Shown here one piece after another: positions 2,280 to 43,992 of a DNA stretch of 64,000 bases. Location of the stretch: contig CP079108.1 in assembly GCA_019285715.1 (NCBI GenBank), forward strand, positions 945,001 to 1,009,000, read 5' to 3'. The DNA is from Sphingosinicellaceae bacterium. Lineage in GTDB: Bacteria > Pseudomonadota > Alphaproteobacteria > Sphingomonadales > Sphingomonadaceae. Under the pieces are notes generated by a model. That model saw only the letters and a program-made list of their open reading frames with translations. It ran no database searches and was not told the origin of the DNA. The stretch's first letter is position 1; the number at the start of each line of letters is the position of its first letter. Position numbers and translations under genes: made by a program.

Positions 2280-2534
2280 GGGCCGCAACCAATTATCATT
2301 CGCTTTCGGGCTGGCAGAGTCGATAACCCAGTCGATATGCCATACATCGCGAAGGCGAGATTGATCCTGCCGACAAGACAGTTCCGCCATCGTTGAACGA
2401 GCTAGAGTGCACATCGGCGGCGGCGCGCGCCGGTCCTCGCGCGAAACCTTCTTGAATTTTTAGTTCGGCGCTGGAATCCGGCGGACGGAAATGGCGACCG
2501 ATGCTATCCTGTGAACGTCTTGCGGGGGCGGGTG

Positions 2535-4496
2535 ATGAGCGACGATCAGACAGGGAACCCGAGCTTCGTGGCGACGCAGTCGGCCGAGCTCTCCGCGGAG
2601 GTCGAGAAGGCGGCCATCGCCGACGCGGGCTACGTTCCAGCCGCTGCGAGGGCCCGGCGTCGTGCCCGTGCCGAAGCGGACGACCGCATCGAGATCAGGA
2701 AGGACTTCCTCGAGAACGCGCGGAGCGATCCCAACGGCTTCGAGCGGGTCATCGGCGCAAGTGACCTGATGTCGATAAACTACCTCGACCGCGGACGACG
2801 CGTGGCAGCGGCCGTCTGCCGGATCAAGGTGCCGAGCCCGGGCGGCGCCTGGTACGGGACCGGCTTCCTCGTCGGTCCCAGGCTCCTGATGACCAATCAC
2901 CACGTGATCTCGAACGCCGACGATGCGAGCCAGGCCGAGGCCGAGTTCGGCTACGAGCACGACGTCGACGGCGTCCTGCAGGCGCCGATCTCATTCAACC
3001 TGCGGCCGCACGAGATCTTCTTCACCAATGCGGAGCTCGACGTCACGTTCGTCGCGGTGACGCCTCTGTCCGATCAGGACGTGCCGCTCGAACGATACGG
3101 CAGGCTTCCGCTGATCCCGCTGTCCGGGAAGGCCATCGGTGGCGAGTGGGTGAGCATCATCCAGCATCCCGGAAGCGAACCGAAGCAGATCGCGATCCGC
3201 GCCAGCAAGGTCATCACGCTCGATCCGGAGGCGGCGACCGGCATCGACCTGACCAGGTTCATCCACTACTCGACCGACACCGAGCCCGGCTCCTCCGGAG
3301 CGCCCGTGCTCAACGACCAGTGGCAGGTCATCGCCCTTCATCACAAGGCCGTCCCGGCGCCGAGAAAGGGGGGTAGGGCACCCGCGAAGACGGTTTGGAT
3401 CGCCAACGAGGGGGTGCGGATCAGCGCGATCTTCCGCCTGCTGGAGCAGCAGCGCTTCGAGTGCCCGCAGGCCGGTCTCGTACTGGACCGCCTCGACCAG
3501 TCGCTCGGATACGCGCCCCTGTCACCGGGCGCCACCGCTGGCGAGATCCTGCTCGAGGCCGACCGAACACCGCTGCCTACGGCCCGATGGACTGGGGTCA
3601 TCGGTTACGAGGCCGACTTCCTCAGCGAACGGATCGACCTAGCGAAGATATACGCGCCCGCACTGGCGCGTGGAGAGGTCGCACCCCTGCGCGACGGAAG
3701 CGGCCATGAACTGACGTACCGTCACTTCACTTCGGTCATCCACGCCGGGAGGCACTTCCCCCTCATCACCGCAGTCAACATCGACGGCGAGAAGCTCGTC
3801 CATCCGGGCAAGCGCAAGGACACCTGGCGGCGGGATGCGCGCATCGACGACGTCCACCAGCCTAACGGCGACTTCTACGAGAAGGCGAAGGGCAAGGACG
3901 CGGTGCAGTTCAGCCGAGGACACCAGGTCCGGCTGTTCGATCCGTGCTGGAGCACCTCCACCAAGCCGGAAGCCGCCTTCGAGGAGGCCAAGCTCGGCGC
4001 CGAGGACACGTTCCACTACACCAATGCCGCGCCCCAGGTTCAGGGATACAACGACATCGACTGGGGAAACCTCGAGGACTATCTACTCGACAAGGCACAA
4101 TCGAGCCGCAAGCTGCTGACGGTATTCACCGGCCCGATCTACCGCGACGACGACCCGCTCTACGGCAAGGATCGTCCGGGCGGGCCCTGGCGCATTCCCC
4201 TCTCGTTCTGGAAGATCGCCGTCCTCCAGAAGTCGAAGACCAAGGTGGCGGCGGCCGCGTTCATCGTCGGGCAGACCCAATACGTACAGGCGCTGTACGA
4301 GGCGAAGGTGTTCTCCGGCCTGAAGCCCTACTCCATCGACGAGATGCGCAAGCGACGCATCCAGACCACGATCGCCGCGATCGAACAGGAGACCGGGCTC
4401 GACTTCGCCGCCGTCAAGCCGTTCGACGCCCAGGGGACCCTCGAGGCTACGCGGCAGACGCATTGGATCTCCGACATCGGGGACGTGGTGATCTGA
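2535..4496 (+). CDS. Trypsin-like serine protease fused to DNA/RNA non-specific (NUC1) endonuclease
   Basis: A 653-aa two-domain effector-like protein. After a charged N-terminal helical segment, a trypsin-like peptidase spans about residues 90-300: GTGFLVGPRLLMTNHHV gives His123, NAELDVTFV gives Asp169 and PGSSGAPVLN gives Ser254, a complete triad. The C-terminal half (about 360-620) resembles NUC1/endonuclease G: FSRGHQVR places the general-base His463 in the position of the DRGH motif (with Ser for Asp), followed by FHYTNAAPQ and an N-x3-W-x2-L segment. No signal peptide is visible, so it should act in the cytoplasm. ATG 2535 follows a G-rich ribosome site. The VRR-NUC gene starts 25 bp downstream. 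Protease-nuclease fusions are common in bacterial conflict systems; use here in phage defence is inference. Confidence 0.88.
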   Translation: MSDDQTGNPSFVATQSAELSAEVEKAAIADAGYVPAAARARRRARAEADDRIEIRKDFLENARSDPNGFERVIGASDLMSINYLDRGRRVAAAVCRIKVPSPGGAWYGTGFLVGPRLLMTNHHVISNADDASQAEAEFGYEHDVDGVLQAPISFNLRPHEIFFTNAELDVTFVAVTPLSDQDVPLERYGRLPLIPLSGKAIGGEWVSIIQHPGSEPKQIAIRASKVITLDPEAATGIDLTRFIHYSTDTEPGSSGAPVLNDQWQVIALHHKAVPAPRKGGRAPAKTVWIANEGVRISAIFRLLEQQRFECPQAGLVLDRLDQSLGYAPLSPGATAGEILLEADRTPLPTARWTGVIGYEADFLSERIDLAKIYAPALARGEVAPLRDGSGHELTYRHFTSVIHAGRHFPLITAVNIDGEKLVHPGKRKDTWRRDARIDDVHQPNGDFYEKAKGKDAVQFSRGHQVRLFDPCWSTSTKPEAAFEEAKLGAEDTFHYTNAAPQVQGYNDIDWGNLEDYLLDKAQSSRKLLTVFTGPIYRDDDPLYGKDRPGGPWRIPLSFWKIAVLQKSKTKVAAAAFIVGQTQYVQALYEAKVFSGLKPYSIDEMRKRRIQTTIAAIEQETGLDFAAVKPFDAQGTLEATRQTHWISDIGDVVI

Positions 4497-7581: not shown

Positions 7582-8110
7582 CGATTGGTGGGTATAAAGA
7601 CGCCGCTTTCGTAGCGGTCGCGGCACGGGGAGCAATGGCTTCCGGTCTGCTGCATGGAGATACACCGATGCTGGGGGCCGTAGGGGCCGACGAAGCACAC
7701 GGACGTCGGATGCTCGATGATCTCGAACCAACACGCTACAAAGACAACCGAGCACCGCACGAAGACTATATAGGCCGTATGAGGTATAATATAAATAACG
7801 GTCGACGAGGGGCTGGCAGCCAGTGTGTAATTACACCAGCACAGATGTTGTAAGCGAGAAAGCGACGGACAGTCGCCTTTTGCCGGGCTCGACAAATTCG
7901 GCAATGTCGACGAGTGCGCACTTCGATATTATTCCTGGACTATCAGCTTGGGTGCAGCGTGCGCTGGTGTAGATATCCTTGCACTGCTCGATCCTGCGCG
8001 TCGCGATCCAACTCTTCCGTCGCCGTCCGAATCCAGCGATCGGCCTAACCGGCAGTAGGCACGGCTGCCACTCGATAGCGATTGATTGCGGCGTCCGCGT
8101 GAACTATATC
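7582..8110. other. AT-richer leader region upstream of the recombinase trio
   Basis: About 530 bp with no supported gene. It is visibly more AT-rich than its surroundings, especially at 7775-7800. It holds a palindrome and a spaced inverted repeat (separate entry), and a likely promoter for the trio. Confidence 0.5.
7825..7971. repeat. Palindrome and spaced inverted repeat upstream of the tyrosine recombinases
   Basis: GTGTAATTACAC at 7825-7836 is a perfect 12-bp palindrome. It runs into TTACACCAGC (7831-7840), whose ACACCAGC is matched in inverted orientation by GCTGGTGT at 7963-7970, about 120 bp away. Spaced inverted repeats next to a tyrosine recombinase can be arm or core binding sites. 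This is a candidate element end or regulatory site; no second copy of the junction was found within the window. Confidence 0.4.
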
Positions 8111-9520
8111 ATGTCGATGCCGAACATCTACCGCCCGGCCCCTAGGATGAACGGTCGGCGTCGCCATACGCTGCACCGCGTGACTGGCGACGCAGGGCCA
8201 CGATACGTCGTGCTCGATCCACATGGCGGCATTGCGCCCCTCGCGGCTGCGCTCATCACCAAGATGCGGGAGGGGCGACTGGCTGTCGCGACCGTGCCGG
8301 TGTACGCCCGGGGAGCCCTAGTCTTCCTCGACGACGTCTCGCACAACGCGATGTCGACGGCGCCAGGGGCCTACACGCCTTGGTCACCGCCTTGCGACGT
8401 GATCGAACTCTTCAAGGACTGCATCCGCCGGCTCGGTGGGAAGCTCGAGGAGTCGACCGTCGAGCCAGGCGTCTACCACGTCACCGTCGAGGAAGAGGAC
8501 GACCACGACGGCGTGGTCGCGGCCATCTGCGGCGTGTTCCACTACTACGACGCGGCGGTGAAGGCGGGCGTGTACGAGTGGGCCAATCCGTTCGAGATCC
8601 CGCTCGAGCACCGTGTCCATCGTAGCATTCCCGGAGTGGCCGGTCGCTTCACGGTATTGCCCCGCTTCCGCTTCAGGATGCCTCGCGCGGAGGGGTCCCC
8701 GCTCAGGACTGATCCCAGCGACCGCGTACACGACGTCGTCCCGGCGCTGATCGCCGCTGGAGCCCCCATCGCGGTCGTCATGATGATCAAGTTGATGATC
8801 GAAGGCCTCGCCCGGATCGCCGAGCAGATCAGGCTTAACCTATGGGACTGGTGGAACGCATCGCAGTTCGGGTCGCTCATCGAGACCACGAACAAAGGTG
8901 GGCGGGGTAGGCGCACCAAGCAGCAGGCGATCACTTCGGCGCTCGTCGCGGAACTCCTGCACTACGCTAACAACGAAAGGGTGCTGCTCGACCGGAACGG
9001 CTGGTCGTTAGACCGGTGGCGGCAATTCCTGACGGATCCGACCAGGAGCATGAAGGAGCGACGGATGGCGGCCAAGAAGGCGCCGCTGTTCCCAGCCAGG
9101 CACAAGGGCTTCTACTCGAGGTCGGGCGTCATCGACAACTGGTACAGGTCAGCGATGCGTGTGGCCGGCCTGCCGAGCCGCACCCATTATCTCCGCCACA
9201 GCGGAGTCAACGACTTCCTCGCCTACATCGAAGCCCGGGACGACCTGACCCCAGAAGAGAAGAGGGCAGCCAAGCTCGAGTTCGCGAAGTCGTTGGGGTG
9301 GGCTTGGCCGGAGGCGATGCTCGAGAGGTACAGCCTGCCAGCGCGCAAGGCCGCGCAGCTCGTCACAGCTACGGAATGGCTCGCGCACCGGCACAGACAG
9401 CAGGAGCTGATCATGGCTGGCTTGGGGCGCCCGCCTCGCGCCGCGAGCCTGAAGTCAACCTCTTGTGATGGCCAGCTCTCCCGGCTCGTCAAGTACGCCA
9501 TCGATAGGATAGCCGCATGA
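8111..9520 (+). CDS. Tyrosine recombinase/integrase, first gene of a three-gene trio
   Basis: A 469-aa site-specific recombinase. The catalytic core is in the C-terminal half. Box I is IEGLARIAEQIRLNLWDW with Arg235. A basic loop follows (TNKGGRGRRTKQQ). Box II is THYLRHSGVND with His359, Arg362 and His363. The nucleophile is most likely Tyr407 in MLERYSLP. The N-terminal 200 residues would bind core DNA and are not similar to anything I recognise. ATG 8111 is the first good start; the frame opens further upstream but without domain content. Its stop overlaps the start of the next gene (ATGA), so the two are translationally coupled. Probably the catalytic integrase of a mobile element. Confidence 0.85.
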   Translation: MSMPNIYRPAPRMNGRRRHTLHRVTGDAGPRYVVLDPHGGIAPLAAALITKMREGRLAVATVPVYARGALVFLDDVSHNAMSTAPGAYTPWSPPCDVIELFKDCIRRLGGKLEESTVEPGVYHVTVEEEDDHDGVVAAICGVFHYYDAAVKAGVYEWANPFEIPLEHRVHRSIPGVAGRFTVLPRFRFRMPRAEGSPLRTDPSDRVHDVVPALIAAGAPIAVVMMIKLMIEGLARIAEQIRLNLWDWWNASQFGSLIETTNKGGRGRRTKQQAITSALVAELLHYANNERVLLDRNGWSLDRWRQFLTDPTRSMKERRMAAKKAPLFPARHKGFYSRSGVIDNWYRSAMRVAGLPSRTHYLRHSGVNDFLAYIEARDDLTPEEKRAAKLEFAKSLGWAWPEAMLERYSLPARKAAQLVTATEWLAHRHRQQELIMAGLGRPPRAASLKSTSCDGQLSRLVKYAIDRIAA

Positions 9521-12306
9521 TTCACAAGCAACCGCTGGACCGATACGTGAATACACTCGTCTCTCTTCACGGAATGGGGCACGGACGCATTCGCAGACTG
9601 CTGTGCTGCGGCCTGCTCCCCGCCATCGGGGAGCCCTCGACGTCCGCTCACAAGGCGCCCTCCGAAACTTCGACCGGGGCATTGCAGCGTATGCTCGATG
9701 ACGGTCCGGCGTTCACGAGCCGCGAGCAGTTCCGGGACTTCCGCGGGAAGCTCGCGGCGGGCGAAAGCCTGAGCGGCGTGATCCTCTCCAAGCGCCGCAT
9801 AAGGGAAGCGGCGGCGGTTCTGCTCGAAGAGGGCGAGCCCCTGGTCGTCGAAACCGTATTCCAGCTAGCAGGTGGAAATCGCCCCCAGATCGGCGCAGCG
9901 CTTCGGTTGCTGGCCCTAGAGTGGCCGGGCGGCCTGGAGCGAGCCGTGATGAACGCCGCCGATCTCGAGCCGCAGCATCTCGCAGCCATGGCGCGGTCCG
10001 GTCTCGTGCCAGAGTTGTCATGGGACGGGAAGAAGCGCGGGCTCATCGACGCGGCGGTGCTCGCTTCCGATCTGCGAAAGCGCTTCTACAGGTGGAAGCC
10101 TGAGCGCTTCGAGTTCCAGCAGGTGATCGACCTTGGTGTCATGCGGAATGGGCTGCGGCTGGGATGGGCGGATGACAATCCCGCCGGCGTGCTCGACCCA
10201 CTCATCGACATGATGATCCGCCACCAGCACAATCCGACCGTGCACAAGGTGCAAACACTTGCAAGCGGTGGAGCCGCGCAGATCGAAGCGCATCTGCGCG
10301 CCCGCGCCCGCTCGACAGGCGACGTCTCTCTTCCGCACCGGTTATCGCGGGGAAAATGGAGAGAAGAGGATCTACGCCAAGCCTTGCCCCCGCAGATGTC
10401 GGACCTGTTCAACACCGCTCTCGACCCGGTCCGCGGCTCTCCGCACGATAAACTCTCCCTACCGAAAACGGGCCGCATAATTGAAAATCCCCACGCGCAA
10501 TTGCAGATCATCGGCGCCGTCGTCGCCCTGCACCGCCCAAGGGCAAGCGCGCTCCTGCGCAGTTCGGACAAGGCCGAGCAGGCCGCGAGCAATTTGGCCA
10601 GGGGCCTCGCCGGGATCGACGTCACGAACCCGGCCCTGCTCGCAATTGGCTTCGACGCCATCCGCCTCCTGCTCCGCGGTCCGATGGACCCCCGCGAAGT
10701 CCGTCAGACATTGCGGCACATCGACCACTGGCGGTTCATAATCGAGGTGTACGACGACTACCTTGCCACGCCGGGTCTTCCGACCGCGACGCGTGCCTTC
10801 CTCATTCGATTCCGACCCGTCTGGCCTTCCGGCGGTCAGGCGCTCTTCAGGCAAGTCAAGGACGAGCTCAACGCGTTCGCTCGGAGCAGCAAGGCGGCCC
10901 TCGACGAGAAGCTGCAACCCTTTCTGAAGGACGTTCCTGGATTCGTCCAAGGCGTTCTAGGCGTACAGGTGCAGCTCGAAGGGCTTCGCGGGCACGTGCG
11001 CACCCAAGTGGCGAAGGAGGAGAAGAAAGGAACGGAGGCGGTCTGGCCGCTCCACGAGACCTTCATCAGCTCGACACCAGTCGGCGGGGGAGGGATGGCC
11101 ACCGACGAGTACGACTACAGGGTTCACCGCTGGATCGACGTCATGGGCCGGATCGATGCCATCACCGACACCTTCGCGAGGCCGAGCGTCTTGTATGCCC
11201 TCGACCCATTCGGCGGCCATCCAGGCGCCGAACAGCTGTTCGAGAACCGGTTCGTCGTGGAACTGCTCGGGTGCCGTCGCGATGGTGTCGATGTCGACTA
11301 CCAGATCGACGTCCTCAGACTACACCGGGACTACGGCTTCTGGGAGTCGCGTGATCTTCCCGACGGCGAGGCCTACGCGCTCCGTTCGGCACGCCTGGCT
11401 GAGTTCGGTCTCACTCCGGAGATCGCAGCGCAGACCGGCGGGGGCATCGCTAACTTCGGACGGGGCAAGTTCATCCGCGCCAGAAAGGCCCGGCTTCTGC
11501 TGGGCCACTTTCTGTTCCCGATCGAGGAAGCCTATCATTCGTCGCTTATCGGAGCTCTCCAGATTGCCGCACGTGCCGTCGAGGCGTTGCGCATCGGCGA
11601 TCTAGTGCAATGGAACATCGGAGAAGGTCTTGAGACGGTCCTGGACGAGACGGGCAGACCATTCACGGTTCTCAGCTCCGTTCCGAAGAACCACGTGGAA
11701 CCACGGAAGTCGCCGTTGACCTCGGAGTGCGAAGACCTGGCCGACAAGCTGCTCGCACTCGCCAGCGAGCGCTTCTTCCAGGGCGGTCCCATCCCGGTAT
11801 TGAAGCGGGCGAACCACAACGGCAAAGGACCCGAGAGGGAGCGGATGCTGTTCTGCACCCGCGAGGCCGGCATGGCCGGAAGCGTCATCAACAACAACAG
11901 TCGTCTGCTGATGGGCGGCAACGGCGGCTTCCAGAGCCACTGGTGCAAGTACCTGTGGTCGAAACTCCGACGCTCAGAAGGCAAATCGCTCGACGAGCGT
12001 CGACAGGGACATGGCCACAAGACCGAGCGGATGGCGGCCTACTACGACGTGCTCACCCCCGACGAGAATTACAGGATCCTGCAAGTGCTCCACGAGCAGG
12101 CCGAGACCCGTGCCGCGCATAGGCGCGGAGAGCGGGACAGCCCGCTGCCCGACCCTCCGCTTTCGGACCTGCGCCTCGAGGCCGGGCGGCTTGCAAACGA
12201 CATCGTCTTCCTCGCGGCGCGCGATGCGACACCGCAGCTCAAGGCGGCACGCGAGAGGCTTTCGCTCATCGAAGCCAAGATTCGGCGGGCGGAGAGGGCG
12301 GCGTGA
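9517..12306 (+). CDS. Large tyrosine-recombinase-like protein, second gene of the trio
   Basis: A 929-aa protein with a divergent tyrosine-recombinase core at its C-terminal end. Box I-like ARAVEALRIGDLVQW (Arg686) is followed by a strand region ending near VEPRKSPL. The terminal motif GHGHKTERMAAYYDVL carries His834 and Tyr842/Tyr843 in the H-x(n)-Y arrangement. The canonical HxLRH motif is not obvious; SHWCKYLWSKLRR occupies that position. About 600 N-terminal residues are unrecognised. It overlaps both neighbours by 4 nt. The size and position recall TnpB of Tn554-type elements and the large proteins of other recombinase trios; homology to any specific family needs a search. Confidence 0.7.
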   Translation: MIHKQPLDRYVNTLVSLHGMGHGRIRRLLCCGLLPAIGEPSTSAHKAPSETSTGALQRMLDDGPAFTSREQFRDFRGKLAAGESLSGVILSKRRIREAAAVLLEEGEPLVVETVFQLAGGNRPQIGAALRLLALEWPGGLERAVMNAADLEPQHLAAMARSGLVPELSWDGKKRGLIDAAVLASDLRKRFYRWKPERFEFQQVIDLGVMRNGLRLGWADDNPAGVLDPLIDMMIRHQHNPTVHKVQTLASGGAAQIEAHLRARARSTGDVSLPHRLSRGKWREEDLRQALPPQMSDLFNTALDPVRGSPHDKLSLPKTGRIIENPHAQLQIIGAVVALHRPRASALLRSSDKAEQAASNLARGLAGIDVTNPALLAIGFDAIRLLLRGPMDPREVRQTLRHIDHWRFIIEVYDDYLATPGLPTATRAFLIRFRPVWPSGGQALFRQVKDELNAFARSSKAALDEKLQPFLKDVPGFVQGVLGVQVQLEGLRGHVRTQVAKEEKKGTEAVWPLHETFISSTPVGGGGMATDEYDYRVHRWIDVMGRIDAITDTFARPSVLYALDPFGGHPGAEQLFENRFVVELLGCRRDGVDVDYQIDVLRLHRDYGFWESRDLPDGEAYALRSARLAEFGLTPEIAAQTGGGIANFGRGKFIRARKARLLLGHFLFPIEEAYHSSLIGALQIAARAVEALRIGDLVQWNIGEGLETVLDETGRPFTVLSSVPKNHVEPRKSPLTSECEDLADKLLALASERFFQGGPIPVLKRANHNGKGPERERMLFCTREAGMAGSVINNNSRLLMGGNGGFQSHWCKYLWSKLRRSEGKSLDERRQGHGHKTERMAAYYDVLTPDENYRILQVLHEQAETRAAHRRGERDSPLPDPPLSDLRLEAGRLANDIVFLAARDATPQLKAARERLSLIEAKIRRAERAA

Positions 12307-13187
12307 GCGGCCCGATCCTCCATGCCGTCGAACTCGGGTTACAGCCTTCTGTCGACGACTCACGCCTGGTGCGGCTGGGCAAGCGCGCCGCGCTGCTACT
12401 CATCTCCCGCGACGAGCCGATCAGCAGGGCCACGCTCTGCGCCGCGTCCAAGGAGGTAGAGAGCGAGCCCGGACGCCGGAAGCCGGGGTTCAGCGAGGCG
12501 AGCCTTCGTACCAATGCGGGCCTGCGAAGGGTGTATAGGCTAGCCCGGAGCATGCCGGCCAGGTCCGTGGTGAGGCGGCGCGGAAAGGTGGCAGCGCATA
12601 TACTCCGGATGACCAAGGCCGAAATCGCCATCTCGCTGGTCGTCGGGCGGATGGCAGCCCTGGAGCGGGAGGAGGAGCACCGTCTCGCGATGGAGCGCCT
12701 CGGCATCCAATCCGCCGCTCCGGCGGTCGAGCGCGCCCGCATCGAGCGTGACGCCCTTGCGGTCAACGTGGCGCTCGACGGCGTCCGGCACCGACCCGCA
12801 GCCGCCGACCTCAGGATCGCCGTTTCGCGTGCCAATGCCGACGCCGTTGGAAGGGCGACGGCCTGGGCGGAACGCCAGGGCATCCGACCGACCTCACAGT
12901 GGCTGGCGGCTCGTTGCGGCCTCCACCCGGGGACCGTGGAGCGCATGGCGATGGCGGCATCCGCGAAAGAGGCAATCGCGAAGACGTTCGGCTTCGAGGT
13001 GCCACTGCCCCCATCACTGATGCGCTACCGGAAATGGGACCTCGGCCGTGCGCTACACGTCGAGCGGACCTACATCCGCGCTCTTCACGACGCGACCATG
13101 ACGATCGCCGCCGTCGTCATCGAGCGCGAGCAGCAGGAACGCCGGGCCGCCGTCCGGGCCGCGCAGGTCCGGGATGCGGTCCTGTGA
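12303..13187 (+). CDS. Third protein of the recombinase trio, probable DNA-binding accessory protein
   Basis: A 294-aa basic, helical protein starting at GTG within a GTGA overlap with the preceding stop. Residues 55-95 (SEASLRTNAGLRRVYRLARS and following) and 195-255 (SQWLAARCGLHPGTVERMAM, then RKWDLGRALHVERTYIRALH) look like helix-turn-helix segments. It has no catalytic motif that I can recognise. By position it corresponds to TnpC-type accessory factors that orient or regulate the recombinases. Its last 71 nt overlap the 3' end of the convergent exonuclease gene, which places the probable right boundary of the trio here. Confidence 0.6.
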   Translation: MSGPILHAVELGLQPSVDDSRLVRLGKRAALLLISRDEPISRATLCAASKEVESEPGRRKPGFSEASLRTNAGLRRVYRLARSMPARSVVRRRGKVAAHILRMTKAEIAISLVVGRMAALEREEEHRLAMERLGIQSAAPAVERARIERDALAVNVALDGVRHRPAAADLRIAVSRANADAVGRATAWAERQGIRPTSQWLAARCGLHPGTVERMAMAASAKEAIAKTFGFEVPLPPSLMRYRKWDLGRALHVERTYIRALHDATMTIAAVVIEREQQERRAAVRAAQVRDAVL

Positions 13188-13923
13188 GCCGCCCGCGCGC
13201 AACGGAGACCAAGTGGTGACCGGCGAGGGACTGCACGTTGGGGTCGACGCCGGCCACGCCCTCGAGGACGTCGGCGATCCCGGTCCACGCGGTCGCTGCG
13301 AACCCGTCGTCGCCGGTCTCGAACGACCGGTGGTAGGCGTAGGCGAGGAACGTGCCTACGACGTCGAGCCGGTTGTGCTCGGCAACGGCGTCGTGCCTTC
13401 CCCGCGAATGCAGGGTGAGCACCGGTCGGGCGGAGAGCCCGTTGCGGACCGCGAATCCCAGACCCGCACAGGCGTCCGCCAGCCGCCAGGCCGCGCGCCG
13501 ATCGCCGCATGCGAAGCGCTCCATCACGTCGACGTGCGACCCGGCCGCTCCCCCGCACCAGCCCGCGAGGGCGCGTACACCGAACATCCAGTTCGAACAG
13601 GCGCGCTGGCGGAGAAGCCGGAGATCGTGACCGCCGTTCCACGTCACCAGGCGGGAAGACCCCTCCGCCGGATCGGGGAGCAGCAGGTCGACGCACCCGA
13701 GGATAGAAGTCTCGTCCAGCTCCGGATGAGCGAACGTCCTCAGATCCACATCGGCGAAACCGTTCGGATGCTCATCGCAGACGAGCACGGTGGCGCTGAC
13801 AATGCGGTGCAGCGCCGGCCTCGCGTGGCCGCCGGCGGAGTGCCGGGGCGCCTGGGACAGCGCGTCGCCATCGGGAACGCTCTCGACGTCGAGGACGGCC
13901 ACGCGAGCCGAGGTCCGGATCAC
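13117..13923 (-). CDS. Predicted 3'-5' exonuclease, PolB-type (DNA_pol_B_exo2-like)
   Basis: A 268-aa DEDD exonuclease. Exo I is AVLDVESVPDG with Asp12 and Glu14, Exo II is VTWNGGHDLRLL with Asp100, and Exo III is AEHNRLDVVGTFLAY with Asp187. The HVDVMERF segment between them is also typical of this family. It should degrade DNA or RNA from the 3' end using two metal ions. The GTG start at 13923 overlaps the stop of the upstream DUF2384-like gene (GTGA), so translation is coupled. The proline-rich last 25 residues are antisense to the recombinase-trio third gene and may not be native. Its role beside an antitoxin-like protein is unknown. Confidence 0.75.
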   Translation of the reverse strand: MIRTSARVAVLDVESVPDGDALSQAPRHSAGGHARPALHRIVSATVLVCDEHPNGFADVDLRTFAHPELDETSILGCVDLLLPDPAEGSSRLVTWNGGHDLRLLRQRACSNWMFGVRALAGWCGGAAGSHVDVMERFACGDRRAAWRLADACAGLGFAVRNGLSARPVLTLHSRGRHDAVAEHNRLDVVGTFLAYAYHRSFETGDDGFAATAWTGIADVLEGVAGVDPNVQSLAGHHLVSVARGRLTGPHPGPARPGRRPGVPAARAR

Positions 13924-14276
13924 GTCCCGTGCCTCGCCGCGGCAGCAGCGCGCATTGCGCGGAGTTCGGTGGCGCCGCGCGACATGAAGGCGAGCGGCGT
14001 CTCCATGCCGTCCTCGTCGTCGCGCAGCCACTCGAGCAGGACGTCCTCGGGAAACACCAAGTCGAGCTCGCGCGCGACGTCGATGACCAGCCGCAGCCTG
14101 GTCTCGGCGTCGGCGTCCGGCACGTCCAGAAGGAAATCGGCCCCTTCACCGTACGCTTCCAAGCCGAGAAGCGCGGCGGTTTGCGCCGGCGCGAGGCGCC
14201 AGTGGGCGGCGATCTCCACGAACCGCGTACAAGCCGATCGCAGCTCACACGCGCCAGCTTCCTCCATAACCCTCAT
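13920..14276 (-). CDS. DUF2384 (MbcA/ParS/Xre antitoxin)-like protein
   Basis: A 118-aa protein matching the plan of the antitoxin/Xre MbcA/ParS toxin-binding domain: HWRLAPAQTAALLGL (about residues 26-40), then ETRLRLVIDVARELDLVF, an EWLRDD segment and a final TPLAFMSRGATELRAM. In classical systems this domain neutralises a RES-type toxin. Here the coupled downstream gene is instead a PolB-type exonuclease. ATG 14276 has AGAGGG about 6 nt upstream; GTG 14279 is an alternative. Palindrome B begins 18 bp upstream and is shared with the divergent HU-like gene, so the protein may autoregulate through it, as many antitoxins do. Confidence 0.6.
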   Translation of the reverse strand: MRVMEEAGACELRSACTRFVEIAAHWRLAPAQTAALLGLEAYGEGADFLLDVPDADAETRLRLVIDVARELDLVFPEDVLLEWLRDDEDGMETPLAFMSRGATELRAMRAAAAARHGT

Positions 14277-14294
14277 CACCGACCCTCTAATAAT

Positions 14295-14310
14295 GGTACT
14301 TATAAGTACC
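14295..14310. promoter_or_regulatory. Palindrome B: perfect GGTACTTATAAGTACC
   Basis: A perfect 16-bp palindrome centred between two divergent genes, 18 bp before the DUF2384-like start and 29 bp before the HU-like start. Its TATAA centre could overlap a -10 element on either strand. Same family as the sites at 5541 and 16966. Confidence 0.7.
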
Positions 14311-14339
14311 TAATGCGCCTAGGCTTCAGGAGTTCCCAA

Positions 14340-14651
14340 GTGACCCACAGTGAATTGGCCAGACGCGTCGCAAGGCGCGAAAGCGTGTCGATACGGGACG
14401 CCCGCCGCATCCTCGATGCGGCCGCGCTCGAGATTGCGATCGCGCTGGCGGCCGGCGAACCCGCGACCATCGCCGGCGTGGGGACCTTCGCACGGCGGGC
14501 GGATGCCAGCGGCCGAACCCGCTTCAGATCGTCCACCACCACCCGCGCGGCCGCCCCTCCCGGACTTTCGGCCGCCATACCCACGCCCACGATCGTGGGG
14601 GTAGACGACGTCACGCCCGGAAGCAGTTGCGGAGCACAACCCCGGTGCTAA
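14340..14651 (+). CDS. HU/IHF-like DNA-binding protein
   Basis: A 103-aa protein with the histone-like fold signature: THSELARRVARRESVSIRDARRILDAA forms the N-terminal helices, followed by AAGEPATIAGVGTFARR, equivalent to the GxxVxLxGFGxF strand of HU. The DNA-intercalating arm is shorter than in HU and the tail is Pro/Thr-rich. The GTG at 14340 follows CAGGAG at 7-nt spacing, which favours it over the ATG at 14313 that lies against the palindrome. It diverges from the DUF2384-like gene across palindrome B and is followed 10 bp later by an unknown gene. Mobile elements often carry such nucleoid proteins. Confidence 0.75.
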   Translation: MTHSELARRVARRESVSIRDARRILDAAALEIAIALAAGEPATIAGVGTFARRADASGRTRFRSSTTTRAAAPPGLSAAIPTPTIVGVDDVTPGSSCGAQPRC

Positions 14652-14661
14652 TCAGAAGCTG

Positions 14662-15345
14662 ATGGCGTTCCGCGATCCAGACGAACCGTTCTCGCTCGAC
14701 TTCGCCGATCTCGAGCTGCTCATGGCCCTGTTGCGCTCACCCCACGGGAAGCCGGCGGCGATGCGACCGCGGTTGCGCGAATTTCAGAAGCGGTTCTTCC
14801 CGAAGGTCGCCAACACCGGCCGCGGCCGACGAGCAACCTACACCTTACGCGAGGCGCTGCACGTCGCGGTCGCCTTCGAACTCGTCGACATGGACCTCAG
14901 CTCTCCCCGCTGCATCAACGTCGTCGAGCAGAACAGACGCCGGCTCGATCCGCTTTTCGTCGCCGCGTGGGCGACCGTCCGCGGACTGGAGGAGGGCAGG
15001 CTCGACGAGGAGGCCTTATCCCGGCGGAGGGCGCGGTTGACATTCCACGTCGCGTTGTCGGCGACGACTCACGGCGGCGGCGTCTATTCCGCATTCGGCG
15101 GACCGCCCGAGGACCCTTGGCCAGCGGACTGGCCGGGACGCCGCTCGCGCATATCAATAGACATGGTGGCGCTGGTGGCCGACGTTCTCGCGGCGCTCGA
15201 AGGCGAGAGCTTCCGCTTCCTGCGGCGGGAGGTCGACGGCGAGTTCCTCGCGCTCGGCCACGAAATGTTCGGGCCAAAGCCGGTCGAGGAGTGGCAGCCG
15301 GGCCGGATCGATCCATACGACGACAGGTACGTTCTCCAGAGCTGA
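14662..15345 (+). CDS. Hypothetical protein with possible N-terminal winged helix
   Basis: A 227-aa protein without a family I recognise. Residues 38-90 (LREFQKRFFPKVANTGRGRR, then YTLREALHVAVAFELVDM) resemble MerR-like or winged-helix DNA-binding segments, with a basic GRGRRA turn before the second helix. The remainder is mixed alpha/beta with a glycine-rich stretch near residue 135. It starts 10 bp after the HU-like gene with a weak AGAAG ribosome site and is probably cotranscribed with it from palindrome B. A regulatory role is a guess from the context. Confidence 0.55.
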   Translation: MAFRDPDEPFSLDFADLELLMALLRSPHGKPAAMRPRLREFQKRFFPKVANTGRGRRATYTLREALHVAVAFELVDMDLSSPRCINVVEQNRRRLDPLFVAAWATVRGLEEGRLDEEALSRRRARLTFHVALSATTHGGGVYSAFGGPPEDPWPADWPGRRSRISIDMVALVADVLAALEGESFRFLRREVDGEFLALGHEMFGPKPVEEWQPGRIDPYDDRYVLQS

Positions 15346-15405
15346 ATTTCCGGAAGTCGATGATGGGGAAAAAGGTCCCGGTCGCGGCGCTCCCCGGAGA
15401 TCAAC

Positions 15406-16035
15406 ATGGAACTGAACATCGTGATCCGCACGGCGGACCCCGCCGGCGCGGCGGCCACCCTGCGCGCCCTCGGCTTGGAGATCTCGCCACCGAACAGGCC
15501 CAACCCGACGCGATGGCACGGCAAGGCCCGCGTGTCGGTTCTCGTCGAGGCGTGCGGACCGGGCGAGCAGCCCTCGGCCGTACTCGGTGTCGAGGATCCG
15601 CATCGCCTGCGCGCAGCGATGACGGGCCAGGCCACGACCGCTGACGCCGATGGCCCGGTCGTGATCGACATCGGCGGCCTCCCGGTGTCCGTGGTCGCCG
15701 ACGCCGGGTTGGTCTCCCGCCCGGGCGGCGACGCCAGCATTCTCCTCCATGCGGAGGTGATCCTCCGCGACGCGGCAGGCGAGCTGGCCGAAGCATTCAG
15801 TCGGCTCGACGTCCGGAATGCCCGTGTGGTCGGACCGCAGCTCCTGCTCGGGCGTTTCGAACGCCTCTTCACGATGGTCGTCGACGGTTCCGACCAAGGA
15901 TCGCTGGAGGTGATCAACGCGATCCTCGCTGTCCACTCGGACGACACAATGCGCATCGAGGCACGTGCGGCAGAAGAGTTCGACGGTCTCACCCTGGCTC
16001 GCATCGACAAGTTCGCATGGGACGTCCGCGTGTAA
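15406..16035 (+). CDS. Hypothetical protein
   Basis: A 209-aa protein, unrecognised. It begins MELNIVIRTADP and shows alternating strands and helices throughout (for example PVVIDIGGLPVSVVADAG and ERLFTMVVDGSDQGSLEVINAILAV), suggesting a compact cytosolic alpha/beta protein. No signal peptide, membrane helix, cysteine pair or catalytic motif stands out. A GGAG sits 6 nt before the ATG. It follows the preceding gene by 60 bp and is probably the last gene of the HU-like operon. Confidence 0.55.
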   Translation: MELNIVIRTADPAGAAATLRALGLEISPPNRPNPTRWHGKARVSVLVEACGPGEQPSAVLGVEDPHRLRAAMTGQATTADADGPVVIDIGGLPVSVVADAGLVSRPGGDASILLHAEVILRDAAGELAEAFSRLDVRNARVVGPQLLLGRFERLFTMVVDGSDQGSLEVINAILAVHSDDTMRIEARAAEEFDGLTLARIDKFAWDVRV

Positions 16036-16159
16036 CGCGGTGCAGGCGTGCGGAAGCTGGAACGGTGCCGTCCCGTCGGAAAGATCGGCAGGAGCGCCCT
16101 GCGGGCAGTTGCGGCCCGGCTCGTCATGAGGCGCCTTCGTTCCCATGCTCGCTCCGCGC

Positions 16160-16458
16160 CTAACGGACGCGGGGTTCGTTAGGAGCGCGAGGAATATCGG
16201 CTCCACTCGGCACACCGATGCGTATCGGCCGACAGATCCCTTGGTGCAGCCGTAACTCGACGAGCCAAACATTGACGATCTCGTTGAGAGGAGAGCCGGC
16301 CGGGATCGTCTTTCGACGTGCGGCCAGAATCCGGGCGAACCGGTCGGGGCCGACTCGACGTCCAGAACGCCGCAGCGGCGGCCGTGCTTGCCCGGAAGCG
16401 CACGATCCTCGTCGATCAATTCATCTGCCCCGGCGTCATAGCGCCGTTCGCGGGTCAT
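16160..16458 (-). pseudogene. Frameshifted remnant downstream of the second DUF2384-like gene
   Basis: One frame starts MTRERRYDAGADELIDEDRA and reaches GVLDVESAP, which resembles the Exo I start of the exonuclease at 13117-13923 (AVLDVESVP). The natural-looking continuation is in another frame: DRFARILAARRKTIPAGSP, then NEIVNVWLVELRLHQG, ending at TAG 16160-16162. A single shift in the GCCCCG run near 16349 would join them. Either this is a decayed partner gene or a short ORF beginning elsewhere. The rest of 16036-16528 shows no gene. Confidence 0.35.
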
Positions 16459-16528
16459 GATCGGCGCAGGGGTCGGATGACCGGCGGCTGCTCCGGCAAG
16501 ACGGCGGCACGGCTTGCCATGACCACTC

Positions 16529-16942
16529 TCAGCAGAGCCAGCCGCGCGGAAACCTCCTCAGGCGCTCGGCGGACAGCTGCCTGGCGATCGCCCGGACGCC
16601 GTCGTCCTGGTCTATCATGATCCGCAGCGGTGTGGTCGGCACGGGGCACGACCCCTCCGTCCACAGACCGGGGTTCGGCGAGCGGACCCACTCGCGCACC
16701 GCGTCCTCGTCGGCGAGCAGAGCACGCGCGTCGTCGGCGATCGAGACGATCCATCGCATCCGCGCCTCGGACTCGAACGCGGCCGACCTGTCCGACGCGT
16801 TCGCCCCACGGGGCGCTCGCGTGAGCATGTCGCGCTCCTCGTCGAGGATGCCGAGTACGTCGAGCGCCCAATCGAAGGCCTTGAGCATCGCGGCGTGCTC
16901 GGCTTCCGATGCGTCGTCGACGAGTGTGAGGTGAATTGCCAT
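16529..16942 (-). CDS. Second DUF2384-like protein
   Basis: A 137-aa protein. Its C-terminal part has REWVRSPNPGLWTEG, then TTPLRIMIDQDDGVRAIARQL, matching the W-x(n)-N/P, P-L-x-x-M and G-x-x-x-V-x-x-L pattern at the end of MbcA/ParS/Xre antitoxin domains. The N-terminal half (MAIHLTLVDDASEAEHAAML and following) is helical and less typical. The chosen ATG 16942 lies 24 bp from palindrome C; a longer frame would read back through the palindrome and is unlikely. Same layout as the gene at 13920-14276: palindrome, antitoxin-like gene, then an (in this case broken) VLDVES gene. Resemblance to the family is moderate. Confidence 0.45.
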   Translation of the reverse strand: MAIHLTLVDDASEAEHAAMLKAFDWALDVLGILDEERDMLTRAPRGANASDRSAAFESEARMRWIVSIADDARALLADEDAVREWVRSPNPGLWTEGSCPVPTTPLRIMIDQDDGVRAIARQLSAERLRRFPRGWLC

Positions 16943-16965
16943 GCCAATTAGATGGGACCACAAAA

Positions 16966-16981
16966 GGTACTTACAAGTACC
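16966..16981. promoter_or_regulatory. Palindrome C: GGTACTTACAAGTACC
   Basis: A 16-bp site with 7-bp perfect arms, differing from palindrome B only at one central base. It lies between the second DUF2384-like gene (24 bp from its ATG) and the TM0106-type nuclease gene (about 80 bp from its start). Probable shared operator. Confidence 0.65.
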
Positions 16982-17062
16982 ATAACCAGACACCATCTAG
17001 TCTACTCGCCGGTCGATTCCACGATGGACTGCCGACCTTGCGAGGAGGAGAATGCCTTGGAG

Positions 17063-18658
17063 ATGGTGACCGCGACCCAGCTCTACGACCACGTGACGTG
17101 CCCGCGGCGGGTCGATCTCGACGCCCACGCCGACGGGCTCCGGAAGGCCGACGTCAGCCCGTTCGTGCGCATGCTATGGCAGCGCGGTGCCAGTCACGAG
17201 TCTGATGTCGTCAGGACGCTGCCGGAGGGCACGGTGCTCCTGGCGGGCCTGCCGGGACCGGAGCGGGAGCACCGCACCGCGGAGGCGATGGCCGGCGGTG
17301 CCGAGCTGATCCACGGCGGCCGCATCTCTGCGGACGACCTCCTCGGCGACCCCGATCTGCTCGTGCGTCGGGACGGCCGCTACCTGCCGGTCGACATCAA
17401 GTCGGGACGTGCCGAGGAGAACGGTGACGATGACGGCGAGCCGGGCCGGCCGAAACCGCACTACGCGGTTCAGGTCGCGCTCTACGTCGACGTCCTGGAA
17501 AGGCAGGGTTTGTCCGCGGGCAGGCATCCGGAAATCTGGGACGTGCGTGGCGACCGCATCGCCTACGATCTCGAGGCACCCCGCGGTCCGCGGACCCCGA
17601 CGAGCCTTTGGGACCTCTACACCTTGAGCCGTGATGCGGTCCGAGCCATCCTGGCCTCACCGCATTCGACCCGCGGTGCGCTGTCCGCCGCCTGCGGATT
17701 CTGCCATTGGCGCGAGGTCTGCAGTGCCGAGCTCGAGGCCGCGGGCGACCTAACATTGGTGCCGGCGCTCGGCCGCGCCGCGCGTGACATCCTCTCGTCG
17801 AGCATCCCGACGCTCGACGCCTTGGCGACGATGGACCCGGAGGTCTACATCCGGGGCAGGAAGACCGTCTTCGCCGGGGTCGGTCCGGATCGTCTGCGCC
17901 TGTACAGGGACCGGGCGCGCCTGCTTACGACGCCCGGCGCAACGCCGTATCTGCGCCATGCGGTCGTCCTGCCCGAGACCAGGCTCGAAATAATGTTCGA
18001 CATCGAAGCGGACCCGATGCGCGACCTCGTCTACCTGCACGGCTTCATCGAGCGGACTGGCCGGGATCCGGCCACGGAGGTCTTCACCCCGTTCTATGCC
18101 GGCACACCGACGCCGGAAGGCGAACGGGAAGCCTTCGCCGGCGCCATCGCCTATCTCGCCGAAAGGCCAAGCGCGACGGTGTTCTACTATTCAAGGTACG
18201 AGAGGACGATGTACCGAAAGCTGCAGCGCCGTTTTCCGGACGTATGCTCCGAGGACACGATCGCGGCCATCTTCACGCCGCCGCGCTCGGTCGACCTCTA
18301 CTGCGACGTGGTCGCCAAGGCCACGGAATGGCCCACCCGCAGCCATTCGATCAAAACCATCGCGAAACATCTCGGGTTCGCCTGGCGCGACACCGACCCG
18401 TCGGGTGCGGCCTCGATCGAATGGTACGACCGCTGGGTAAAGGGCAACGACCCGGACGTCCGCCAGCGCATCCTCGACTACAACGAGGACGACTGCCGGG
18501 CGACCGGCGTCGTGCTGGACGGCGTCAGGGCTTTAAAGCCGTTTCCCCCCCGCGTCAACGGAGGTGATCAGGGAGCCGCTTCCGGGATGAGCGGGACGGT
18601 CCGCATCGATCTTGAAGCGTTCGGGAGCGTCCGATCGACTTACGGTCGGCGCAGGTGA
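17063..18658 (+). CDS. TM0106-family RecB-like nuclease with C-terminal RNase H-like domain
   Basis: A 531-aa protein. The N-terminal PD-(D/E)XK nuclease (about 1-240) opens with ATQLYDHVTCPRRVDLD and MLWQRGASHESDV, then ISADDLLGDPDLLVRRDGRYLPVDIKSGR, giving the D and D-x-K catalytic residues, and QVALYVDVL. A Cas4-like cysteine cluster (CGFCHWREVC) follows. The C-terminal part (about 310-500) is a YprB/RNase H-like exonuclease: LEIMFDIEADP, then YYSRYERTM and a terminal YNEDDCRAT. The start is set by GAGGAGG; TTG 17057 is an alternative. It lies next to palindrome C, divergent from the DUF2384-like gene. Its physiological substrate is unknown. Confidence 0.8.
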   Translation: MVTATQLYDHVTCPRRVDLDAHADGLRKADVSPFVRMLWQRGASHESDVVRTLPEGTVLLAGLPGPEREHRTAEAMAGGAELIHGGRISADDLLGDPDLLVRRDGRYLPVDIKSGRAEENGDDDGEPGRPKPHYAVQVALYVDVLERQGLSAGRHPEIWDVRGDRIAYDLEAPRGPRTPTSLWDLYTLSRDAVRAILASPHSTRGALSAACGFCHWREVCSAELEAAGDLTLVPALGRAARDILSSSIPTLDALATMDPEVYIRGRKTVFAGVGPDRLRLYRDRARLLTTPGATPYLRHAVVLPETRLEIMFDIEADPMRDLVYLHGFIERTGRDPATEVFTPFYAGTPTPEGEREAFAGAIAYLAERPSATVFYYSRYERTMYRKLQRRFPDVCSEDTIAAIFTPPRSVDLYCDVVAKATEWPTRSHSIKTIAKHLGFAWRDTDPSGAASIEWYDRWVKGNDPDVRQRILDYNEDDCRATGVVLDGVRALKPFPPRVNGGDQGAASGMSGTVRIDLEAFGSVRSTYGRRR

Positions 18659-19644: not shown

Positions 19645-20577
19645 TCAGGAGCGTGGCCTGTCGAGCGGCAAGCCATCCGCGTCTCTGCAATCCGACAGCA
19701 GCATCTCGTGGTGCGCGGCGCCAGGTGGCAACATCGGATAGCAGTTCTCCGCACCGGCGGTCACGATCTCCACGAGCACCGGACCGGGGGTCGCGAGCGC
19801 GTGGGCGAGCGAAGCGGTGAGCTCTGCGGGGTCGTCGATGCGGAAGCCGCTCCAGCCGTAGGCGGCGGCGAGGGCGACGAAGTCGGGGAGCGCCTCGGCG
19901 CGGCTGTGGCTCAGACGACGGTCGTGAATCAGGTCCTGCCACTGCCTGACCATCCCCATCGCGCCGTTGTTGAGGATGATCAGCTTGACCGGCAGGCGGT
20001 GCTGGACGGCGGTCGCCAGCTCCTGGATGTTCATCTGCACCGACGCTTCACCGGAGACGCAGACGACCAGCCGGTCCGGATACGCGATCTGGGCGCCGAG
20101 GGCGGCCGGGAGGCCGTATCCCATAGTGCCCAGCCCACCGGAGGTCAGCCCGCGGCCGGGCTCATCGAAGCTCATGTACTGCGCGGCCCACATCTGGTGC
20201 TGGCCGACATCGGTGCTGACCACCACGTCGTGGTCCCGGAGAAGCGCCGACAGTTGCGACAGCGCGTGCTGCGGCAGCACCCGGTCGGGGTTGGGCCGGA
20301 ACGCCAGGCAGCGTTGGGATCGCCAGCCCGCGATGTCCTGCCACCAGCTGGTCAGGTCCGGCGCCGCCGCCTCGCCCCAGGCGCGCAGCACCGCCTCGAG
20401 CACGTCGGCGGCGTCACCCACGACACCCAGGTCGACCGGGACGAGCTTGCCGATCTCGCTCGGATCGACGTCCACATGGATCTTGCGGCTTCCCGGGGAG
20501 AAGCCATCGAGACGCCCGGTGACGCGGTCGTCGAAGCGCGCACCCAGGCAGACGAGCAGGTCGCAGCCGTGCGGGAG
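19645..20577 (-). pseudogene. Truncated acetolactate synthase large subunit (C-terminal half only)
   Basis: The frame matches the C-terminal part of the intact ilvB at 24009-25739: [39 protein letters not shown] and LPPGAAHHEMLL are nearly the same in both. The N-terminal half, including the catalytic glutamate region, is missing. The similarity stops abruptly near 20573 (GGTCGCAGCCGTGC), where the 3' end of a hydrolase gene begins; a frame stays open past the junction but is no longer ilvB-like. The two copies have diverged at many positions, so the event is not recent or came from a related genome. No promoter or start can serve it, so I call it a pseudogene. Confidence 0.85.
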
Positions 20578-24008: not shown

Positions 24009-25739
24009 CTACGCAGCCGACTCTCCGTCCGCGTCGCGTAGCAGCATCTCGTTATGGGCCGCACCGGGCGGCAGCATCGGGTAGCAGTTCTCATCGCCGG
24101 CGGTGACGATCTCGACGAGCACCGGGCCGGGGGTGTCGAGCGCCTCGGCCAGTGTCGCCGCGAGCGCGTCCGGGTCGGCGATACGCAGTCCCTTCCAGCC
24201 ATAGGCGGCAGCCAGCGCGACGAAGTCGGGGAGCGCCTCGGCCCGGCTGTGGCTGAGCCGCCGGTCGTAGATCAGGTCCTGCCACTGCCGCACCATGCCC
24301 ATCGCACCATTGTTGAGGATGACCAGCTTGACCGGCAGCCCGTGCTGCACCGCGGTCGCCAGTTCCTGGATATTCATCTGGACCGACGCTTCGCCCGACA
24401 CGCAGACGACGAGGCGATCCGGATGCGCGATCTGCGCACCGAGTGCCGCGGGCAGGCCGTAGCCCATGGTGCCGAGACCACCCGAGGTGAGCCAGCGGCC
24501 CGGCGCCTCGAAGCCGAGATACTGCGCCGCCCACATCTGATGCTGGCCGACGTCGGTCGCGACCACCACATCATGTTCGCGGAGCAGTGCCGACAGTTGC
24601 GACAGCGCGTGCTGCGGTAGCACCCGGTCGGGGGCGGGCCGGAACGCCAGGCAGCGCTGGGCCCGCCAGCCCCCGATGTCCTGCCACCAGCTTGTCAGGT
24701 CTGGCGCCGCCGCCTCGCCCCAGGCGCGCACCACCGCCTCGAGCACGTCGGCGGCGTCGCCCACGACACCCAGGTCGACCGGGACCAGCTTGCCGATCTC
24801 GCTCGGGTCGACGTCGACATGGATTTTGCGGCTGCCCGGCGAGAAGCCGTCGAGTCGCCCGGTGACGCGGTCGTCGAAGCGCGCACCCAGGCAGACGAGC
24901 AGGTCGCAACCGTGCATGGCGAGGTTCGCCTCCATCGTGCCGTGCATGCCCGGCATGCCGAGCCACTGCGGGTCGCTCGCCGGAAACGCGCCGAGTCCGA
25001 GCAGCGTAGTCGTCACCGGTGCACTGGTCAGCGCCGCCAGCCGGGCCAGCGCGTCCGAGGCAGCCGCGCCGGCGTTGACGATGCCACCGCCGGCATAAAG
25101 CAGCGGCCGCCGCGCGGCGCGCAGCATCGCGACTATCTGCCGTGCCGCGTCGGCATGAGCGTTGACCGGCGGGGCAGGAGGCGGGGCGGCGGCGTGCTGC
25201 TCGGCCAGCGTCGCCTGCAGGTCCTTGGTCAGTTCGACGAATACCGGGCCCGGCCGGCCGCTGCGGGCCTGGTGCAGCGCTTCCGCGATGGTGGCGGCGA
25301 CATCCTCGGCGGCGTGGACGCTGCGGCTCCACTTGGTCGCGGGGCGCGTCAGGGCCATGGCGTTCGCCTCCTGGAAGGCGCCGGTGCCGGTCTTCTCGCG
25401 CGCCACCTGACCGGCGATGACGAGCACCGGCACCGAGTCCATCAGCGCGTCGACGAGACCCGTGATCGTGTTGGTCAGGCCCGGCCCGCTGGTGACGAGC
25501 ACGACCCCGACCCGCCCCGTGGAGCGTGCATAGCCCTCCGCCATGTGCACGGCAGCCTGTTCGTGACGAACGAGCACGTGGCGGATGTCGCTGCGGTCGA
25601 CCAAGGCATCATACAGCGGAAGTACGGCACCGCCGGGATAGCCGAAGATCGTGTCAACACCGCCCGCGACGAGTGCGTCGAGGCACGCCTCGGCACCGGT
25701 CATTCGCGGTGCCGGCGCCAGCGCCCGGAGCGCGCTCAT
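24009..25739 (-). CDS. ilvB: Acetolactate synthase large subunit
   Basis: A 576-aa TPP enzyme that condenses two pyruvates (or pyruvate plus 2-oxobutyrate), the first common step of branched-chain amino acid synthesis. The catalytic glutamate is Glu60 in [20 protein letters not shown]-region motifs include [14 protein letters not shown] and [14 protein letters not shown]. The TPP-Mg motif reads SGEASVQMN where AHAS usually has GDAS, so the first metal ligand would be Glu rather than Asp. Its ATG overlaps the stop of the small-subunit gene (ATGA). The C-terminal half is duplicated as a pseudogene at 19645-20577. Probably regulated by the divergent Lrp protein. Confidence 0.92.
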
Positions 25740-41809: not shown

Positions 41810-42031
41810 AACCGCAATCCACAGACTCCAGCGCACCGCCTGTTGACTCTCCGGAACGTTTAACGAACAACTAATACGAACGATTGAGGCCGGACGCTAC
41901 CAACGTCCGGCCTCGGTCGATCCGCAACGATGGCAATCGCTCGCGGGTCAGATGGGTGCGCCCGACTTTACTCTATGCCGATCCCCGGAAGCGTCAAGGG
42001 CGATTGTCGATACATATAAGGCAATCGTTAT

Positions 42032-42262
42032 ATGGCTATCTACCAAGACGCATCCGTAGTCCGAAAGGGTTCCGGCGCTGCTTTTGAAAACACTTACAAG
42101 CCGGGAACCGCCTGCCCGCACTCAGGCATCTACCGGTGCCAAAGCTGCGGGCATGAGGTCGCATCCAATAAGCGTCAGCCGCTTCCGCCCCAGCATGAGA
42201 AGCCGCATACCGGTGCGATCATCTGGAAGCTGGTGGTGTATGCGGAGCATAAGAAGGATTAG
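42032..42262 (+). CDS. Small conserved protein with a zinc-ribbon-like CxxC motif
   Basis: A 76-aa protein: FENTYKPGTACPHSGIYRCQSCGHEVASNK, then QPLPPQHEKPHTG. The PG-x-x-CP-x-SGIY-x-C-x-x-CG pattern is that of a widespread short family with a YjzC-like fold and unknown function; Cys and His residues could hold a metal. Between the IS remnant and the RiPP-like cluster, on the plus strand, it is apparently a single gene. The upstream region is AT-rich with no strong ribosome site. Confidence 0.6.
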   Translation: MAIYQDASVVRKGSGAAFENTYKPGTACPHSGIYRCQSCGHEVASNKRQPLPPQHEKPHTGAIIWKLVVYAEHKKD

Positions 42263-42482
42263 GCTCGTCTAGCGATAGCGCTCGCACTGACGACCGTTCA
42301 TACCGGCCCAAAGTGCGGGCGCAATTCCAAGTACTGTCCGTGCCGTCGATACCAGCTCGTCGGCCGGGATCGTGCGCTGCATGAAGACCGCGACAGCTTC
42401 AATGTCGCCGTCCGTCCGCAGGAGTAGAGGATGTTCGGGTGGACGCGGCCGTGCTGCCAGCGAGGCGGCGAACCGCAGTCAC

Positions 42483-43975: not shown

Positions 43976-43992
43976 GTGAGGGCTACCAGATC

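Follow-up and report, generated by a model that had tools for sequence, protein, structure and literature searches.

Gene organization of the locus

The window analysed here, the whole stretch of 64,000 nucleotides of contig CP079108.1 from a Sphingosinicellaceae bacterium, contains three same-strand open reading frames, termed A, B and C, with each adjacent pair sharing 4 nt (Table 1). The ORF coordinates bear out the lengths of 469, 929 and 294 aa and the 4-nt overlaps given in a preliminary description of this DNA, and the three genes form a real trio. The trio is present in a single copy in the complete 4.43 Mb genome, which consists of one contig. Models of Pfam, NCBIfam and PADLOC return nothing for A and B at E ≤ 1.

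Table 1. Positions of the trio genes and of neighbouring features in the window
Feature	Position (nt)	Strand	Basis or remark
Likely left-end zone (inferred)	7756..8110		End of E. coli relatives lies 88-89 nt before A
Gene A, short tyrosine recombinase, 469 aa	8111..9520	+	HMM of relatives, catalytic residues
Gene B, long tyrosine recombinase, 929 aa	9517..12306	+	HMM built without the window, hhalign
Gene C, 294 aa, N-terminal HTH-like stretch (21-78)	12303..13187	+	Weak HMM match, position
Putative cargo: PolB-type 3'-5' exonuclease (PF10108)	13120..13935	-	Homologue near another sphingomonad trio
Small partner of the exonuclease, DUF7323 below cut-off	13920..14279	-	
HU-like DNA-binding protein, element membership uncertain	14340..14651	+	PF00216, E=5e-8
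Putative cargo: PD-(D/E)XK + RNase H-like nuclease protein	16952..18658	+	

The short recombinase A

Comparison of A with PHROGs hints at a phage integrase (E 0.25). Its relatives in other bacteria, described below, allow for a firmer assignment. The homologue on a Deinococcus plasmid matches A pairwise at E=2e-12, comparison with the profile of the relatives (hhalign) gives E=1.4e-13 across residues 20-408, and an HMM built from six relatives retrieves A at E=6e-23, with the runner-up among the 375 window ORFs at 3.7. By pairwise, profile and HMM comparison alike, A is homologous to the short recombinase of the trio family whose members insert into umuC.

In the family alignment, residues R235, K262, H359, R362, W397 and Y407 of A are invariant. 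Most of the R-H-R-H-Y set that had been read from the sequence earlier (R235, H359, R362 and Y407) is thereby retained, with K262 and W397 as further catalytic positions, while the proposed H363 proves to be the variable His of an 'RH' pair. The alignment thus shows A to be a tyrosine recombinase with all catalytic residues. We refer to both A and B as tyrosine recombinases because of such residues and of homology. AlphaFold models computed without an alignment reached a pLDDT of 39 for A and 44 for the end of B; they were too poor and were not used.

The long recombinase B

The sequence similarity of B to the family is weak. A single-protein search with B found no relative in 397 genomes of the same bacterial family, and an HMM of four B relatives did not recover B among the 375 window ORFs. 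An HMM of seven relatives, with the window excluded, detects B at E=1.5e-6 (next ORF 1.1), and hhalign of B against these seven relatives gives a probability of 94 and E=1.2e-7 over residues 576-861. The catalytic core accordingly spans approximately residues 576-861 and is preceded by an N-terminal part of about 575 aa. As judged from these alignments, B is shown to be a long protein ending in a recombinase core.

The catalytic columns of B are occupied by R692, K724, H808, K811, H834 and Y843. The H834 and Y842/843 of the preliminary description agree with the alignment; its R686 does not, as the first catalytic arginine (Arg I) is R692. The core is homologous to that of the umuC-type family and carries its catalytic set with one replacement: the Arg II column holds Lys (K811) in the window and Arg in 7/7 homologues. 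Lys at this position is expected to weaken catalysis by tyrosine recombinases. The window copy may therefore be impaired, with the activity of B reduced or lost.

The third gene C

Gene C displays no recombinase similarity and gives one sub-threshold Pfam match. Against the third genes of the relatives it reaches E=0.005 by profile comparison and 0.01 by HMM (the best of 375 ORFs), both of which are weak. The earlier impression that C looks DNA-binding is in line with an HTH-like stretch at residues 21-78, which resembles TnpC-like third genes; by itself, this match is weak as well. Assignment of C to the family is hence weak, and rests mainly on its position and this HTH match. C is approximately twice as long as the other third genes compared here, of which those of Klebsiella and Deinococcus show sub-threshold similarity to DUF6262.

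Homologous trios in other bacteria

A tblastn search of plasmids with A led to a Deinococcus gobiensis plasmid (E=2e-5), on which a 474-aa homologue of A overlaps a gene for a 924-aa 'integrase' by 4 nt, followed by a third gene of 148 aa. With the Deinococcus protein as query, further homologues were found on Enterobacterales plasmids, in Lysinibacillus and Alicyclobacillus, and on more Deinococcus plasmids. Every well-preserved locus displays the same order of short recombinase, long recombinase and small protein, and 4-nt overlaps are common to most of these trios. The proteins measure 445-977-150 aa in Klebsiella and 446-709-157 aa in Lysinibacillus, where the trio is plasmid-borne; homologous trios are also present in E. 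coli and Proteus.

Closer to the window, a search of 366 genomes from the order, with an alignment as query, revealed trios in two more sphingomonads, with short overlaps and lengths of 468-739-184 aa and 459-about 780-at least 137 aa, the last gene being cut by the contig end. Single-sequence searches of 397 genomes of the family and 385 of the class returned only the window itself. A search of 337 class genomes with a profile of B yielded no further trio, only weak core matches, mostly in short reading frames; the longest of these (genome G696) proved to be an ordinary integrase. Nothing was found in viral contigs, or in 84,980 species genomes scanned with single proteins; such scans detect close relatives only.

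Given the copies in sphingomonads, the module extends over more than one phylum. The suggestion that the trio is possibly a new mobile-element class in sphingomonads is not supported in that form, given homologous trios in Deinococcus, Bacillota and Enterobacterales and a plan that is already published, with Tn554-like elements, including one on a Novosphingobium plasmid, listed in PMC3414803. What is new here is a divergent sphingomonad variant of this Tn554-like plan.

Insertion of related trios into umuC

Relatives in Enterobacterales offer a greater level of detail, since their ends can be read directly. We aligned the Klebsiella plasmid p299-OXA-48 to a plasmid with intact umuC. The backbone match ends at position 2503 of the latter and restarts at 2501, which places an insert of 11,055 bp in codon 146 of umuC (nt 436-438), with no more than 3 bp shared. 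Three E. coli chromosomes, those of AW1.7, CX04 and PO06101, have umuC interrupted at the same codon 146 (reference MG1655), by inserts of 11,055, 14,155 and 11,832 bp, respectively. The A-proximal end of the elements reads TGC-T[AG]TGTAACACTG and lies 88-89 nt before the start of A; the far end reads CTTGATCACTGTATAA. From their sequences, the two ends resemble imperfect inverted repeats. Of 5,426 E. coli genomes, 11 contain at least 80% of the trio query.

The cargo of these elements varies. Some carry CBASS genes (HORMA, TRIP13 and NucC) together with an Xre/MbcA/ParS-type antitoxin, and the CX04 element carries Gabija (GajA E=3e-261, GajB E=1e-286) and its own umuDC. The same target, combined with different cargo and different replicons, provides strong evidence that the umuC-inserted module moves as an element.

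The umuDC genes inside the CX04 element (positions 14852-16536 of that locus) could replace the umuC that the insertion destroys. On the Proteus mirabilis plasmid pDY.F1.2, a second overlapping recombinase pair of 329 and 707 aa (positions 11596-14705 of the extracted locus) adjoins a SIR2 gene within the umuC region that bears the trio element, an arrangement that reads as nested or composite elements.

We found no published name for the umuC-inserted trio islands. Hochhauser et al. 2023 (PMC10121019) report E. coli defence islands of the 'integrase-only' and multi-integrase types, the mobility of which is unclear; umuC is absent from that text, so the umuC islands are not equated with its hotspot 23. 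The tmexCD-toprJ 'hp-hp-int-int' elements also sit in umuC (PMC10654056), and were considered as possible relatives of the trio. By what means defence islands move when they have no phage, conjugation or transposase genes is posed as an open question in PMC10121019. One such group of islands is here tied to a defined module of three genes with exact umuC ends, on E. coli plasmids as well as chromosomes. With these ends, one can directly test mobility, the choice of target and how the two recombinases divide the work.

Comparison with known recombinase modules

The umuC islands of E. coli, Klebsiella and Proteus resemble the window in gene order and sizes, and in nuclease or defence cargo placed after the third gene. 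Identity to the window trio is approximately 20% or less. Their target is known, and Arg II is retained in their long protein, which carries a Cys-rich motif at its C-terminus, whereas window B lacks the conserved Arg II.

The preliminary description likened the gene order to Tn554, RIT elements and the Gamma-Mobile-Trio (GMT). The likeness to the Tn554/GMT plan stands. Tn554 of Staphylococcus and Tn554-like elements of Actinobacteria and Novosphingobium (PMC3414803) encode, as the window does, a short and a long recombinase plus a TnpC-like protein in one operon, although the 929 aa of window B exceed the range of 611-828 aa given for Tn554-like elements (PMC3414803). The resemblance to Tn554 is one of gene plan; the link in sequence is indirect, through a Bacillota member of the trio family that matches Rhodococcus pREL1, which is listed as Tn554-like (PMC3414803). 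The likeness to RIT elements (ritA-ritB-ritC) is limited to three overlapping genes, common in proteobacteria: RIT encodes three recombinases, while the third gene of the window is not one and the second encodes 929 aa.

The operons of SE (intA-tfp-intB-srap, PMC10214605) and GInt/Tn6571 (ginABCD, PMC5385486) likewise combine recombinases with a small helper at one end, and GinD is reported to be TnpC-related (PMC5385486). They comprise four genes. One of these encodes a third recombinase-like protein, for which the window trio has no counterpart, and C is not overlapped by another gene on its strand. The ORF at 13174-14313 that overlaps the end of C is spurious, being antisense to the PolB-type exonuclease gene. 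RIT, SE and GInt are thus excluded because their gene content differs. The rulB gene, a relative of umuC, is the insertion site of integron-like elements that have three recombinases (PMC4542609).

Our statements on GMT rest on the NCBIfam GmtY model and on loci read here. The trios fetched with this model measure 438-533 aa (Y), 756-1011 aa (Z) and 201-255 aa (X), so that the earlier remark that the sizes of the window genes match no known system fails: GMT trios have the same order and comparable sizes. With overlaps of 4-8 nt and defence-type genes nearby in addition, the window trio might be taken for a GMT element proper. We consider this very unlikely. A gives no match to the GmtY model, and the trio has none in NCBIfam at E ≤ 1. 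Profile comparison, which had been proposed as a check, speaks against sequence membership, with E values of 0.28 (A-GmtY), 0.055 (B-GmtZ) and 0.22 (C-GmtX), as opposed to 1e-13 for A in the umuC-type family. Furthermore, GmtZ has a Cys-rich C-terminal part that window B lacks.

Ends and neighbourhood of the window trio

Terminal inverted or direct repeats around the window trio are no better than those in shuffled sequences. Empty sites were sought by flanking DNA in 24 relatives, none of which shares both flanks of the window trio, and for a second sphingomonad trio in three genomes of the same genus, with none found. By analogy to the umuC elements, we expect the left end immediately upstream of A and the cargo to the right of C.

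The immediate right-hand neighbours, the PolB exonuclease gene and its DUF7323-like partner (together 13120-14279), are convergent with the trio. A homologue of the exonuclease is encoded near one of the other sphingomonad trios (16482-17240 of that locus; 28% identity, E=9e-14), where GmrSD-type and AAA ATPase genes also occur, and the remaining sphingomonad trio is accompanied by a cytosine methylase and a SNF2-type helicase. Both trios therefore likewise adjoin restriction- or nuclease-type genes. Unknown genes are also present to the right of the window trio. A RES/Xre toxin-antitoxin pair beside the trio, as in Klebsiella, was considered and rejected, the gene in question being the PolB-type exonuclease. 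The HU-like protein close to the trio is possibly an element-borne bending protein.

Genes for a protease-nuclease fusion, a kinase and an acetyltransferase lie to the left. Of the defence-like cargo initially proposed for both sides, the downstream defence-type genes are indeed present; the left-hand genes would fall outside the element, because the left end of the relatives lies just before A.

Further to the right, a 3' fragment of an ilvB-like (acetolactate synthase) gene at 19697-20572 shares 87% DNA identity with the intact copy at 24040-24915, 4.3 kb away. The fragment lies 6.5 kb from the trio, and identity climbs towards its break; it looks like a recombination scar.

These features might also be explained by a trio that was once mobile but became immobile upon loss of Arg II in B, in a neighbourhood rearranged since. 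K811, which sets the window apart from all seven homologues, and the lack of detectable ends around the trio fit such a remnant, and the ilvB fragment points to rearrangement nearby. All three frames are nevertheless open with their 4-nt couplings retained, and the catalytic set of A is complete. We hold this history to be possible, although we lean against it; it overlaps with our preferred reading as a refinement.

Proposed nature and mechanism of the trio

The exact ends and swapped cargo of the umuC relatives argue that the window trio is most likely a recombination module. We thus regard it as probable that the trio serves a site-specific mobile element of the Tn554/GMT plan, as a divergent representative, in Alphaproteobacteria, of a sparse family distributed over Alpha- and Gammaproteobacteria, Deinococcota and Bacillota. 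The single copy, the lack of visible ends and the surrounding nuclease genes would also suit a stand-alone genomic system, for instance in defence or genome maintenance, that employs recombinases without moving. Homologues with clean umuC junctions on plasmids and chromosomes make this quite unlikely. More tentatively, and with slightly more doubt than confidence, we propose that the mobile module represents a broad class, as yet without a name, of site-specific transposons that carry defence genes. This class would stand apart from GMT, SE, GInt and RIT and would occur at least in Alpha- and Gammaproteobacteria, Deinococcota and Bacillota. Its long recombinase would select the target by a unique N-terminal domain, and the sphingomonads would form a deep branch with a target of their own.

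In the mechanism we envisage, A, B and C would be made together from one translationally coupled operon, the coupling suggesting a fixed stoichiometry, and would assemble on the two ends of the element. The two different recombinases probably bind both ends and swap strands; A and B would cut and rejoin DNA via their tyrosines, giving a circular copy that is released or copied out. The circle would then insert at a preferred target, perhaps chosen by the long N-terminal part of B, with C assisting binding or orientation in the manner of TnpC in Tn554. For systems of this general plan, experiments on SE (PMC10214605) and GInt (PMC5385486) support intermediates in circular form and the requirement for several genes or the full set. 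Work on TnpA, TnpB and TnpC of Tn554, as cited in these papers, supports circles and a multi-gene requirement as well.

Other features of the window

The fusion gene left of the trio (2511-4496, plus strand) encodes 661 aa, in which a trypsin-like peptidase is joined to a DNA/RNA non-specific endonuclease domain; a protease-activated nuclease is a plausible reading. A local fall of the GC content to 57%, compared with approximately 65% elsewhere, immediately precedes a B12-binding radical SAM gene (about 42001-44000 and 44321-46201).
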